The translations under genes and the position numbers were made by a program. From Thermodesulfobacteriaceae bacterium (GTDB taxonomy: Bacteria; Desulfobacterota; Thermodesulfobacteria; Thermodesulfobacteriales; Thermodesulfobacteriaceae): a DNA stretch of 64,000 bases. Positions 7,121 through 49,683 of this stretch are shown piece after piece. The stretch's first letter is position 1. Every line of letters begins with the position of its first letter. The notes beneath the pieces are model-generated. The model was given only the letters and a program-made list of their open reading frames with translations, was not told the origin of the DNA and did not search any database. The DNA lies in NCBI GenBank assembly GCA_025062245.1, contig JANXAD010000004.1, positions 1-64,000 on the forward strand. The letters run 5' to 3'.

Positions 7121-8192
7121 AAAAGACATCGTGGATCTTCCTCTTCATGGAGGAAAATGTCCTTCCTGGCTTTTTGAAAAAATGGTTAGACTAAGTAGAG
7201 CTATTTTACTTTTAGTTTATATGGAATTTGGAAGGGAAGAACTTTTAAGGAGAATTTCAGATCCCTTTTGGTTTCAAGCTTTGGGATGTTTGTTGGGTTT
7301 TGACTGGCACTCCTCTGGCCTTACCACTACAGTAGGAGGAGCCCTAAAAGAAGCTCTTTCTCCCTATTTTAAGGAGATAGGAATTTATCTTTGCGGAGGT
7401 AAAGGAAAAAGAGCTCTTCAAACTCCTCAAGAGATAGAATTTTGGGGTGAAAAACATGCTTTACCTTTAGAAACTCAATACTTGATAACCTTAAGCAGGT
7501 TGACAGCCAGAATTGATAATCATGCTTTACAAGATGGATTTAAACTTTATTTTCATCTCTTCATTTTTTCTAAAGAAGGAAGCTGGGCAGTTGTCCAACA
7601 GGGAATGGATGAAACCACAGCTTATGCTCGGAGATATCACTGGTATAGTAAAAATACCGTAGATCTTTGTGAAGAACCTCATACAGGAATCCTTTCTCCA
7701 ATTAAAAGAAAGGAAGTGCTGAATTTAGTTGCTAAAGAAAGCAAAGCGGTTCAGAATTCTTTGGTGGCTTTAATAAGGGAAAATCCAGCTAAAATTTTAA
7801 AAGAAGTAAGCTTGCAAAATTATTTGATATTTAAGAAAGACCATGAGCTTAGCCTGAGAGATCTTACTTATAAAAATTTAAAAAAGGTTTTAGAAATTAC
7901 TTATGAAAATCCTCCTTCAGAGTTTAAAGAACTTCTTTTAACTTCGGGCTTAGGAGCTAAGACCTTGAGAGCTCTCACTCTTACTGCTGAACTTATCTAT
8001 AATGTGAGGGCTTCTCGAGAAGATCCGGTTTGTTATGCCTATGCTCACGGTGGAAAGGATGGTCATCCCTATCGGTTAAATAGAAAACTTTATGAAACAA
8101 CCCTTAGGGAATTAGAAGAAATTATCAGTAAAGTTAAAATTTCTCATTCGGAAAAACTGGAACTTTTTAGAAAGCTTCCTTATATTTTTTAG
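7113..8192 (+). CDS. DUF763 domain-containing protein
   Basis: DLPLHGGKCPSWLFEKM, VYGGKGKRALQTPQE-like and YAYAHGGKDGHPYRLNRKLYE regions typical of DUF763. Confidence 0.8.
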   Translation: MIKKDIVDLPLHGGKCPSWLFEKMVRLSRAILLLVYMEFGREELLRRISDPFWFQALGCLLGFDWHSSGLTTTVGGALKEALSPYFKEIGIYLCGGKGKRALQTPQEIEFWGEKHALPLETQYLITLSRLTARIDNHALQDGFKLYFHLFIFSKEGSWAVVQQGMDETTAYARRYHWYSKNTVDLCEEPHTGILSPIKRKEVLNLVAKESKAVQNSLVALIRENPAKILKEVSLQNYLIFKKDHELSLRDLTYKNLKKVLEITYENPPSEFKELLLTSGLGAKTLRALTLTAELIYNVRASREDPVCYAYAHGGKDGHPYRLNRKLYETTLRELEEIISKVKISHSEKLELFRKLPYIF

Positions 8193-8470
8193 ACCTTTAC
8201 AAAATTCAAGGGTTTAAAAAAATTTAAGAATAAATTTACAGAAAAAACAAGGGGGTATCTCAAAGTTTAGAGCTTGGTGAGAAAGCGGCAAGGGAGTAAG
8301 TAAAGATAGGTAAGTCTTTAGTTAAAACCTGTTTATGAGGTATGGGCATATAAGGAGAAGGATTAAGGGGTTTGAGATGGTGGTTTAGGGGTTAAATTGG
8401 GATGACAGACAGGAGATAGCCAAGAGAGAGGCTTAGGTAGTTAAATTTAAGCCGAATTTTTCAAAGGTTT
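8191..8470. repeat. MITE-like repeat copy A (divergent member)
   Basis: Left end AGACCTTTACAAAATTC, right end GAATTTTTCAAAGGTTT (imperfect terminal inverted repeats); left ~70 bp and right ~25 bp align by eye with copies B and C. Confidence 0.6.
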
Positions 8471-8840
8471 CTTTTAATTTTATAGGTAATCCGTAGATAG
8501 CCTTTATTGTGAAAAAAATCACTAAATCTTATTTTTAATTTATTTTGTAATTTAATTTAAAAACTAATTTTTTTAAATAATTGAAAGCTTTGGGTAGTAT
8601 CTTAAAAGATGGGTATGGCGAAGGGAGGTTATAAAGGCTAAATTTTATGTTAGATTATCCTTTTTATAACTCCAACCTAAATAATCATTTTTATGATTTT
8701 AGCATGGTTTTTTCTTGGGGTGTTAGTTTAAAGGGATTTGAGTTAATTATAAGGAATAGATTTTGAAAATAAATAAGAAAAAAACTATTTTAAATTAAGA
8801 TTTTAAAGTTATAATTAGGGATATTGTTATAATTTGGCAG

Positions 8841-34069: not shown

Positions 34070-34519
34070 TCAAATTTTAGCAAGAAAATGTAATAATAAA
34101 TTATTTTCTTCAGTCTTTTCCCTCGAAGTGACCCCCTTTCTTTTCCTCTTTAGTGCCTTTAACTTAGATATAGCTGACTTAAGCTTACCACCACTATCTT
34201 TTAAGGTTTTTTCTTCTATATATAGTGGTCTTTGAAACTCCCAAGGCAGCTTTAGTAGCTTCAGTGCCATATTTATCGTGAAACTCTATAACTTTAGGCT
34301 TAGAGAGAACCTCTTGTTGGCAAGAGGTTTCTCTTATAAAGTTTAGCCTTTTTAACCTTTTAGCCTCTTTGGTAAGATTAGGTGAGATAAAGAAAGAGGA
34401 CCTGGAGATCCCATACTTGCTCTTTCTATTCTTTTTCATGAATAGATCTTTCTGAAAATAATTTTTTGATTTTTAATTTTACAACTTTTTATTTTCCCTA
34501 AGGAGACGGAGCTTATGCA
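34070..34519 (-). pseudogene. frameshifted, 3'-truncated transposase remnant (same IS family as 18577-18935)
   Basis: ORFs 34194-34439 and 34070-34270 join by frameshift: KPKVIEFHDKYGTEATKAALGVSKTTIYRRK + KTLKDSGGKLKSAISKLKALKRKRKG (HTH of integrase-type transposases); end GAGACGGAGCTTATGCA. Confidence 0.75.
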
Positions 34520-34589: not shown

Positions 34590-35333
34590 TTATTTAAGAA
34601 TTTCTAAAAGAAAATAGTCCACCTTAGCCTCAGCTTTTCCTAATCCTCCTACAAAATTGGTATAAATTCCGACTAAACCTTTCTTAATCCTCGAGACATC
34701 TAATACCCCTTCAAGTTTTCTGTCATTCCAATAAAAGATAGCTTTACCTTTTTTAACCCTTAACCCCATTTTTTGCCAACCAGATTCCTTAGGAAATTGG
34801 TTAGAAATATCGGTTTCTTTCCAAAATTTTAAATAAACTGGAAAATGCCTTGTATCCTTACCTACATAAGCAAGGTTTAAAGAGGGAGATTTTTTATTAA
34901 AATCGCAAACAAACCTATAAAACCTTCCCTCTATCGGGTCAATTAAAAAGGCCAGCCCAACTAAAGGTCCTTTATCTCCCTCTGATACAGGGCAGTAAAC
35001 CATAGCTTCAAGATAAAAATCACTAACTTCAGGTGTTATAGCATAACTAAGAGCTGCAAATCCCCCTACCTTAGAGTTAGTTAAAATTCCAATACCCCTA
35101 TCTCCTTCTGGAGCAGTAGGATCTTTCACAGCCTCTAAGTTATCGAGAAAATAATGAGGAAAAAACATCCATTGCAATTGAGCCTTTCCTTCAGTAAAGG
35201 AATCCTTAAAAATTTCTGCTGACCAAAGATTAAAACTAAAAAACCAAAATAAAAGCATCAAAAGTAAAAAAACTTTAAAAGAAAGCTTTGAAAAATTCGG
35301 TCTAAAAATTCTTCTAGTGTATCTAAATTTCAT
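34590..35333 (-). CDS. exported protein, LamG/DUF1080-like fold suspected
   Basis: N-terminal RxxR-rich then hydrophobic KVFLLLMLLFWFFSFNLWSAEIF signal segment; start codon lies within repeat copy B. Confidence 0.6.
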   Translation of the reverse strand: MKFRYTRRIFRPNFSKLSFKVFLLLMLLFWFFSFNLWSAEIFKDSFTEGKAQLQWMFFPHYFLDNLEAVKDPTAPEGDRGIGILTNSKVGGFAALSYAITPEVSDFYLEAMVYCPVSEGDKGPLVGLAFLIDPIEGRFYRFVCDFNKKSPSLNLAYVGKDTRHFPVYLKFWKETDISNQFPKESGWQKMGLRVKKGKAIFYWNDRKLEGVLDVSRIKKGLVGIYTNFVGGLGKAEAKVDYFLLEILK

Positions 35334-35585
35334 TCTTAGATATTAATCAAACCTCCTAAGAGTTCTTTAACCCCTCTCTTAACTCCCTACTAACTTGAGA
35401 TTTACTCCCTAAACTTCTCTCTTTGCTATATCATAAATGAAGCTAGATAGGAAGCTCCTGATAGAGAGGATTTTCTTTTATTAACCATTAAGTAACCTTT
35501 TTTCTATACCCTTGAGAAACCTCCTTGTCTTTTTTGTAATTCTATCTTAAAATCTTCTTTAAACCATTGAATTTTACAAAGGTCT
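35282..35585. repeat. MITE-like repeat copy B (inverted relative to copies A and C)
   Basis: Ends AAAGCTTTGAAAAATTC / GAATTTTACAAAGGTCT; reverse complement aligns along its length with 49313-49630; possible TTAAAA flank duplication. Confidence 0.8.
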
Positions 35586-35618
35586 CTTAAAAGAGATTTT
35601 TTCATGTTTTGGTAAATT

Positions 35619-36470
35619 TTAATAAAAATTATTTAATAAATCTTTTATTTTTTCGATCTTAGGTTTTTGTTTTACCAGAGGTTCCTTTTTTAAAACAGGA
35701 ATTTGTTCCTCCAAAGTAGGTCTATTTATCCTATAAATTATTCCGAGAGGAATTTTATCACCCCATTCCAAGGCCTTTTGAAAGGCAAGTTTTCTGTCTT
35801 CAGGATTATAACTATCATCGAGTTGATATACTCTTTTTTGATACCACTGATAGGTATTTACTTTATTGAAGCTTACGCAGGGTTGCAAAATGTCTATTAA
35901 AGCAAACCCTTTATGTTTCACTGCTTCTTTTATAAGCCATTTAAGATGGGTAACTTCTCCTGCAAATCCTCTGGCCACAAAACTACAATCAAGGGCTACA
36001 GCTAAGGCTAAAGGATTTAAAGGTTCGGACATAACACCAAAGGGTTGAGTTTTAGTTAAGACCCCCCTTAAAGTTGTAGGAGAGGCTTGTCCCTTAGTAA
36101 GTCCATAGATTTGGTTGTTATGCACTAAAAGTTTAAAATCGGGATTTCTTCTTATAGTATGAAGTAGATGATTCCCTCCCTCTCCATAACAATCTCCATC
36201 TCCTGCAATAGCAAAAACCTTTAACTGATGATTAGAAAGTTTAATACCTGTAGCTACAGGTAAAGTTCTGCCGTGAAGTCCATTAAAGGTATTACAACGG
36301 GTATAATGGGGAAATTTTCCTGCTTGACCAATACCAGAGACTATAATAATTTCGTGAGGTGCAAGCTCAAGTTCAACCATAGCTTCATTAAAAGCTCTAA
36401 GTATAGAAAAATTCCCACAACCAGGGCACCAAGCGGGTTTTTGGCCTTTAAAATCTTTCAAGGTAAGCAT
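35619..36470 (-). CDS. 2-oxoacid:ferredoxin oxidoreductase beta subunit
   Basis: WCPGCGNFSILRAF, GRTLPVATGIKLS, AIAGDGDCYGEGGNHLLH (TPP-binding). Confidence 0.92.
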   Translation of the reverse strand: MLTLKDFKGQKPAWCPGCGNFSILRAFNEAMVELELAPHEIIIVSGIGQAGKFPHYTRCNTFNGLHGRTLPVATGIKLSNHQLKVFAIAGDGDCYGEGGNHLLHTIRRNPDFKLLVHNNQIYGLTKGQASPTTLRGVLTKTQPFGVMSEPLNPLALAVALDCSFVARGFAGEVTHLKWLIKEAVKHKGFALIDILQPCVSFNKVNTYQWYQKRVYQLDDSYNPEDRKLAFQKALEWGDKIPLGIIYRINRPTLEEQIPVLKKEPLVKQKPKIEKIKDLLNNFY

Positions 36471-38187
36471 AATTTACCCTCTCCTTAAGTTCATCCACTG
36501 TAAAAGGTCTTCCGTCAAATCTATTAATGTGTTTTTTAATTCTCACTCCTGTTTCCAATTGCAAAAGTTTAGCAAATTGACTGGTAGCATTTTGCTCAAT
36601 ATTTATTACAATTTTAGCCTCTTTAATAAGGTTTACCCAACTTACCTCTTCTGAAAAGGGAAAAATTTCGCTAAAATGGAGCATAGCAACTTTAAAATCC
36701 TTAGATAGTTCATCAACTACCTCTTTCACTATTCCGTATAAAGAACCCCAGCAAATTAAGAGAAGATCAGGTTTTTTTTCTCCATATAAGGTGGGAGGTT
36801 CAATTTCTTTTTTAAGAAGAGGAATCTTTTGAAAAAGTCTCTTTTGGACCATTTTTACCCTTATTTCCGCATCCTCTATGAGATGGCCCTCTTCATCATG
36901 TTCATCGCTGTCTGTTATAATAAGATGGGAAGAGTCCCCGGGTATTCCAAGAGGAGAAACTCCTGTATCAGTAAAGGCATGACGCTTATATCCACTTAAG
37001 TTTTTTAATGAGTCTCCTCTTAATCTGTAGTCTACATATTTAAGTTTAGTTAGGTCAAAACTCTGATAACTCCATTGAGAGTCTGCCAGATATTGGTCAG
37101 TTAGAATAATAGCTGGGACTTGAAATTTTTCAGCTAAATCAAAGGCTTTGTTAGTTAAATAAAAGGCTTGTTCTGGGTTGCCCGGAGCAAAGAGAATTTT
37201 GGGAAATTCCCCATGTCCAGCATATAATGCAAAAAGAAGATCTGCTGCTTCAGTTCTGGTAGGAAGTCCAGTAGCAGGACCTGGTCTTTGAGCAAGAGCA
37301 ACCACAATGGGAGTTTCTGTCATACCTGCTAAAGAAAGACCCTCTACCATCAAAGCAAAACCTCCTCCTGAAGTGCCTGTCATAGCTCTAACCCCTGCAA
37401 AAGAGGCTCCTATTATCATATTTATAGCCGATATTTCATCTTCTGCCTGTTCTACCACTATATCAAAATCTTTAGCCTGTTCAGCAATAAAGTTAAATAT
37501 TCCCGTTGAAGGAGTCATAGGATAGGCTGAATAAAACTTTACTCCAGAAGCAATAGCTCCCAACCCTATAGCTTCATTTCCTGAAATAAGCATTTTAGGC
37601 TCTGTAAATTCTGAAAGCCTAAAGGAACACCTAAGACACTCCTTACGTGCTAATTCATAACCAGCTTTGGCTGCCTTCAAATTGGCCTCAACTAAGTCAA
37701 TTCCCTTTTTAATAAAAGTTTTTTTAATAAGTTCAAACATAATCTCAGGATCCATCCCAAGCATACCAATAATAGCTCCAATGGCTACAGTATTAACCAT
37801 AATTTTGTCTCCTCCAAATTCCAGGGCAAGTTTAAGCAAAGGAAGATCAAGGAAATTTTCTTTTTCAAACCTTTCTCTTAAAAGAGAAGAGTCATAAAGT
37901 ACTTGGCCTTCTTCAACTAATTCTCTTTCGTGTAAAAAAATACTTTCCCTATCAAGGGCTACAAGAATATGTACTCTATTTCTTGAAGCTGTAATAGGTC
38001 TATCGGAAATTCTTATTTGATAGAAATTATGCCCCCCTCTTATGCGAGATTCATAATCTTGATGGGAAAAAACATAGAATCCTGCACGGGTAAAAATATG
38101 GGCTAAAGCATCTCCTATAGTTTGAATTCCTTGCCCAGCCTCTCCACCTATTTTAATAGAATAATCCATTAAAGTTTCCTCCACCAA
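36448..38187 (-). CDS. 2-oxoacid:ferredoxin oxidoreductase, fused gamma-alpha subunit
   Basis: N-terminal IKIGGEAGQGIQTIGDALA (gamma) followed by GNEAIGLGAIASGVKFYSAYPMTPSTG (alpha). Confidence 0.92.
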   Translation of the reverse strand: MVEETLMDYSIKIGGEAGQGIQTIGDALAHIFTRAGFYVFSHQDYESRIRGGHNFYQIRISDRPITASRNRVHILVALDRESIFLHERELVEEGQVLYDSSLLRERFEKENFLDLPLLKLALEFGGDKIMVNTVAIGAIIGMLGMDPEIMFELIKKTFIKKGIDLVEANLKAAKAGYELARKECLRCSFRLSEFTEPKMLISGNEAIGLGAIASGVKFYSAYPMTPSTGIFNFIAEQAKDFDIVVEQAEDEISAINMIIGASFAGVRAMTGTSGGGFALMVEGLSLAGMTETPIVVALAQRPGPATGLPTRTEAADLLFALYAGHGEFPKILFAPGNPEQAFYLTNKAFDLAEKFQVPAIILTDQYLADSQWSYQSFDLTKLKYVDYRLRGDSLKNLSGYKRHAFTDTGVSPLGIPGDSSHLIITDSDEHDEEGHLIEDAEIRVKMVQKRLFQKIPLLKKEIEPPTLYGEKKPDLLLICWGSLYGIVKEVVDELSKDFKVAMLHFSEIFPFSEEVSWVNLIKEAKIVINIEQNATSQFAKLLQLETGVRIKKHINRFDGRPFTVDELKERVNYAYLERF

Positions 38188-49312: not shown

Positions 49313-49630
49313 AGACCTTTGCAAAATTCAATTGTCTAACAAAGATTTTAAAATAGAATTACAGAAAAAAGGAGGTTTCTCAAGTGTATAGAAAAAAGAC
49401 TTCTTAATTATCAATTGGAGAAAATCTTATCTATCAGGAGCTTTTTGCCTAGCTTTATTTAGGAATATAGCAAATAAAGAGGCTTAAGGGAGTAAGAAAG
49501 GATATCAAGTAGTGGGGAGTTAAAAGAGGAGTTAAAGGAATTTTAAAAGGTTTGATTAATATTTAAGAGGATTTTTTAATGAAATTTAGATATACCAGAA
49601 GAATTTTTAGACCGAATTTTTCAAAGGTCT
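49313..49630. repeat. MITE-like repeat copy C
   Basis: Ends AGACCTTTGCAAAATTC / GAATTTTTCAAAGGTCT (inverted repeats); possible AAAAG flanking duplication; aligns with reverse complement of copy B. Confidence 0.8.
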
Positions 49631-49683
49631 CAAAAGATTAATCTATCCTAAGTTAGAAAAAAGTGATATAATTAACTTTTAAA

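Follow-up and report, generated by a model that had tools for sequence, protein, structure and literature searches.

In Yersinia pestis, the first 30 residues of the putative exported protein YPO1552, including part of the signal peptide predicted for it, are encoded by the small MITE-like repeat RU-2 (YPAL), and the homologues of this protein have unrelated signal peptides (Delihas 2007; PMC2759123, PMC2229807). In Coxiella burnetii, the MITEs QMITE1 and QMITE2 overlap gene ends and change protein termini (PMC5896051). The Rickettsia palindromic elements are described as short in-frame insertions in protein genes that are tolerated (Ogata et al. 2000, via PMC10969869 and PMC2229807). For the Rpn proteins of E. 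coli, the passages searched report no inverted repeats or transposition and leave autonomous movement possible (PMC5350276).

The stretch of DNA analysed here (the window) comprises 64,000 nt of a draft genome, 93% complete, of one strain. As claimed in the original prediction, which was made from the sequence alone, the ORF at 34590-35333 starts within a repeat element, copy B; the element end indeed lies inside the ORF, with its terminus at 35281 and not 35282. The initial 53 nt of the ORF (35281-35333) are the terminal part of copy B, and residues 1-17 of the protein plus two bases of codon 18 are element-derived. The features of the window are as follows.

8190-8471, plus strand: third element copy, 282 bp, whose right end lacks the ATG segment
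34590-35333, minus strand: fused gene for an exported protein of 247 aa (ORF, ATG at 35331-35333)
35275-35280, minus strand: TTTTAA target-site duplication, gene side
35281-35333, minus strand: element-encoded ATG and first 17.7 codons of the fused gene (MKFRYTRRIFRPNFSKL)
35281-35586, minus strand: copy B of the element (306 bp), with GAGACCTTTGTAAAATTC as its left end (35586) and ..TTAGACCGAATTTTTCAAAGCTTTC as its right end (35281)
35587-35592, minus strand: TTTTAA target-site duplication, far side
35587-35605, minus strand: putative native gene-start stub (ATGAAAAAATCTCTTTTAA), ATG at 35603-35605, 13 nt past the korB stop codon
35619-36470, minus strand: korB, 2-oxoacid:ferredoxin oxidoreductase beta subunit, upstream operon gene
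36448-38187, minus strand: korA, 2-oxoacid:ferredoxin oxidoreductase alpha/gamma-like subunit, homologous neighbour in L213
49312-49631, plus strand: element copy C, 320 bp, same ATG-led end, unfused
49579-49641, plus strand: ATG-led segment of copy C (MKFRYTRRIFRPNFSKVSKD, then stop at 49639-49641)

Read along the minus strand, the korB stop is followed by 13 nt, ATGAAAAAATCTC, TTTTAA, the element, TTTTAA and AGTTTTTTTACTTTTGATGC... The exported protein had no Pfam match and no PDB match, and its predicted structure was of low confidence (pLDDT 46.6). The gene start inside the element is not a chance observation, because the element belongs to a family with dozens of genome matches, paired inverted ends and target duplications well above the shuffled expectation.

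This family has about 40 dispersed copies in the genome (25 to 57 matches per query), which are 209-439 bp long, contain no gene and end in imperfect terminal inverted repeats (GAGACCTTTGCAAAATTC / GAATTTTTCAAAGGTCTC). AT-rich target duplications of 5-8 bp were found in 11 of 19 paired copies, compared with 2.6 of at least 5 bp expected with shuffled pairs, and none of 2000 shuffles reached the mean duplication observed in these 19 copies with both ends clear. The family thus shows the hallmarks of bacterial MITEs, being short and dispersed, with no transposase gene, with inverted ends and with target-site duplication. Copy C carries the same ATG-led segment as copy B, ended by its stop codon, as had been predicted. 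When the full-length element was compared with 13 genus mates, no family copy was detected, and the only matches were one short one each in G005 and G013 (40 and 28 bp, E about 1e-4). The exact 21-base end pattern had no match in the other genomes or viral contigs searched, Rfam found only a tRNA in the window, the folding energy of the element RNA was not below that of shuffles (z -0.71), and promoter signals within the element were at chance level. Our search for a published description of this element family found none.

Three further observations concern the element and its surroundings. At C8:22603-23006 (minus strand; L137), the ATG-led ORF of the element, MKFKDTKRIFRPNFSKVSLNL, stops at a TGA overlapping the ATG of the next gene (ATGA), which is nucleotide-sugar epimerase-like, an arrangement that might let the element end serve as a coupled leader. 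Left element ends give upstream ORFs their last few codons and a stop, e.g. ..KPLKNSTV followed by stop (L132, C26:12250; L137, C8:23006; L134, C77:16233), so judging from these ORFs protein C-termini may be edited by the element as well. A small ORF in the window (34194-34439, minus strand) has a helix-turn-helix-like tail, about 20 mostly broken relatives elsewhere in the genome and no confident Pfam match, and is probably the remains of another mobile family.

What the gene looked like before the insertion can be judged from an element-free relative. A phylum-wide search returned one clear ortholog of the window gene, in another genus (G387, contig C35), located directly downstream of the korA-korB counterpart and free of the element; no ortholog was found in the genus, family or order, and a scan of contigs with the protein also gave none. 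The ortholog is 58% identical to the window protein, and 56% over the 225 residues aligned gap-free (BLASTP); the alignment begins only at window residue 21 and ortholog residue 9. It starts with MNSLRKCVLYVFLSLVFIVLIESSLHA, its ATG overlaps the korB stop (TGATG), and it has an ordinary signal peptide, signal peptides being judged here from charge and hydropathy alone. The comparison with an element-free ortholog returned a different, repeat-free N-terminus, and it supports a reading in which the element replaced the n-region of a pre-existing signal peptide and did not create a signal peptide. The original prediction that an element end was captured as start and basic n-region appears to stand as to the capture; the signal peptide itself would be older than the element.

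The ATG at 35603-35605 is best read as the remains of the native start. It now translates MKKSLL, continues into the element and terminates after 33 codons. When the window flanks were joined exactly, the frame was off by one; with the A6 tract of the stub lengthened to seven A, the join gives MKKISFKVFLLLMLLFWFFSFNLWSAEIFKDSFT, which looks like a normal signal peptide and has a length near that of the G387 ortholog. The ancestral empty site would accordingly be expected to carry a single TTTTAA and an A7 tract (MKKISFKVFLLL..). A one-base slip in a tract that would no longer be coding is modest, yet it is an assumption. As a separate observation, korB has no close ortholog in the 13 genus mates (best about 37%), yet the pair and the exported gene are syntenic in G387, which by sequence comparison suggests transfer or differential loss of the whole korA-korB operon.

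That an element end elsewhere is fused to a different protein was borne out, for one further copy, when all copies of the end were translated from the ATG. At C36:11209 (minus strand), downstream of Rieske and cytochrome b genes, the element end opens into a multihaem cytochrome gene (MKFKDTKGIFRPKFSRVSLILFCFSLLGIGF..) with the same fusion as in the window gene (MKFKDTKGIFRPKFSRVS). The ortholog in G005 has no element; identity is 80% once residue 16 is reached, but its N-terminus is MFKNKKSW (start MFKNKKSWIVFLIFLLGI.., versus MKFKDTKGIFRPKFSRVSLILFCF.. in C36). The C36 flank past the element holds GTGTTGAAAACCGAAAAAAATTTTTATTTT, and the exact join of the flanks is again off by one frame; taking away one A gives VLKTEKIFILFCFSLLGI (VLKTEKIFILFCFSLLGIGFILLSERFFKSYEVV), gap-free against G005. 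In two genes of one genome, the same element end thus appears to have taken the place of the n-region in a signal or anchor sequence. The capture is supported by the element-free ortholog, by the native-start remains with the target duplication, and by this second, independent case with its own ortholog.

We propose that a gene for an exported protein, the third gene of a korA-korB operon, was hit at about codon 7 by the transposition of a non-autonomous 306-bp element with inverted ends, and that this insertion would have severed the native ATG and n-region from the gene. A gene that receives an insertion in its first codons is normally lost. The ATG subfamily of this element has an ATG and an open basic stretch running out through the inverted repeat (MKFRxTKxIFRPNFSKxS), and in the right orientation and frame it would restore a start and a positive n-region before the remaining hydrophobic core, so that the protein could still be exported. 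An independent second insertion would have had the same effect on the multihaem cytochrome gene. Insertions at 5' ends that fail to restore a start would be lost, and the observed set would therefore be filtered for survivors. Since positive charge is nearly all that the n-region of a signal peptide requires, survival is likeliest in genes of exported proteins; both survivors fit this bias, as two cases that suit the explanation rather than an enrichment. We put the probability that insertions of this element replaced the native start and n-region of two genes in this genome, with the window protein still exportable, at about 0.83. Against this reading, both exact flank joins are off by one, so that a single base must have slipped in an A tract of each stub. 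In addition, the window copy has a 10-nt deletion removing the TAAGGA ribosome-binding site that other copies carry, and its only GGAGG, 18 nt upstream of the ATG, exceeds the usual spacing.

It is distinctly unlikely that the insertion simply inactivated the gene, leaving the long ORF as a recent, undecayed pseudogene with an ATG in frame by coincidence. The window copy does lack a ribosome-binding site at normal distance, and the frame would match by chance one time in three, but the 230-codon body is intact and its codon statistics are normal (0.449, against 0.36-0.50 for reference genes and 0.08 for the element part). Several window genes likewise have no clear ribosome-binding site. Moreover, in C36 the element supplies a good TAAGGA site 7 nt ahead of the ATG, and the C36 fusion is intact despite diverged element ends, which argues for age. 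On these sequence features the window gene is probably translated from the element ATG, an assignment that is safer for C36 than for the window gene.

A stronger version of the capture, in which the element encodes a conserved, selected peptide serving as a portable export leader, is very unlikely. It would agree with the finding, first made in the original prediction and reproduced here, that the first 48 nt of copies B and C show just two differences, the synonymous changes TAC/TAT and ACT/ACC, with a pairwise pN/pS of 0.38 among the six intact ends (pairs that are not independent), and with the fact that both fusions, two of two, involve exported or membrane-anchored proteins. However, among the 12 copies of the ATG-segment subfamily (other element ends have no ATG segment), the ATG and frame are intact to the end in only six (B, C, C33, C36, C46 and C8), of which two are fused to genes; the ATG or the frame is lost in the other six. 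The six intact ends differ at many non-synonymous sites, 3, 4 and 6 of their 13 variable columns are at codon positions 1, 2 and 3, a spread not distinguishable from chance, and the inverted repeat itself limits variation in part of the ATG-led segment. The two synonymous differences therefore carry little weight, and the suggestion that the coding content itself matters is not supported.

Also very unlikely is initiation at the internal TTG/ATG (codons 25-26) with the element part untranslated: both codons are present in frame, but their position is midway through the hydrophobic core with no ribosome-binding site seen, the ortholog retains the full n-region and core, and such a start would leave a 14-residue segment without the charged n-region that the fused start provides (charge +7 before the hydrophobic core).

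The origin of the element appears to lie in a longer unit. An Rpn/YhgA-like gene (PF04754, E 6e-29) is present in many copies in the genome, mostly at contig ends. In eight of the nine close copies examined, the left end of the element was found 3' of the rpn gene with unrelated sequence beyond, and the distance from gene to end was about 110-170 nt in the five measured. The rpn unit loci are as follows.

L111:1085-2707 (C55:9584-11206): rpn unit with both ends on one contig
L233, L146, L122 and L253: further rpn unit loci

In typical copies of 280 bp, the first ~103 bp correspond to the 3' end of the unit and the last ~220 bp to its 5' end. Because both element ends match the ends of the rpn unit, the small elements appear to be internal-deletion derivatives of this ~1.5-kb rpn-encoding unit. 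C55:9584-11206, on the sole contig holding both ends, has no target duplication. Separately, the outer flanks of the rpn half-units in L146 (end of C20) and L253 (end of C88) both show the 7-mer TTTTATA where they meet the element, so that, by their sequence, the two halves may be one unit spanning two contigs. DDE_Tnp_1 transposases (PF01609), the one transposase family searched, are absent from this 93% complete genome, which speaks against them as the autonomous partner. We regard it as rather unlikely, if conceivable, that Rpn (PF04754) is the mobility protein and that the deletion derivatives are moving translation-start modules which repeatedly re-start exported-protein genes; such a module would comprise a ribosome-binding site, the ATG and the basic leader. 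Rpn may instead be cargo of the unit.

These results provide a clean, twice-repeated example in which transposition appears to have replaced the first piece of a bacterial protein, and the donor element can be studied together with the native remains, the target duplication and orthologs free of the element. They suggest that arbitrary basic sequence is tolerated as the n-region of a signal peptide, and they caution that an annotated N-terminus can derive from a mobile element. The link between a MITE family and an Rpn-encoding unit also bears on the question whether PF04754 proteins move DNA, the ends of the element being the ends of a unit that encodes a protein of the PF04754 Rpn/YhgA-like/Transposase_31 kind. 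Compared with the described systems, the Coxiella QMITEs alter functional genes at the C-terminus, whereas the present element acts at the N-terminus. The Rickettsia elements insert inside ORFs and encode a conserved peptide, whereas here only the element end would be translated, and a peptide conserved in most copies was not found. The closest likeness is to YPO1552, where a small MITE-like repeat also forms part of the predicted signal peptide of a putative exported protein: in both, the repeat would give the start codon and part of the signal peptide, and the orthologs are repeat-free with unrelated signal peptides. In YPO1552 the repeat adds hydrophobic residues, whereas here it adds the ATG and the basic n-region only; and unlike in YPO1552, the putative native start is visible beside the element and a single genome holds two affected genes. 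A MITE as part of a signal peptide has thus already been published, and the present case adds the native remains and the target duplication at the DNA level, and it clearly illustrates a route, known but seldom documented, by which mobile DNA edits proteins.
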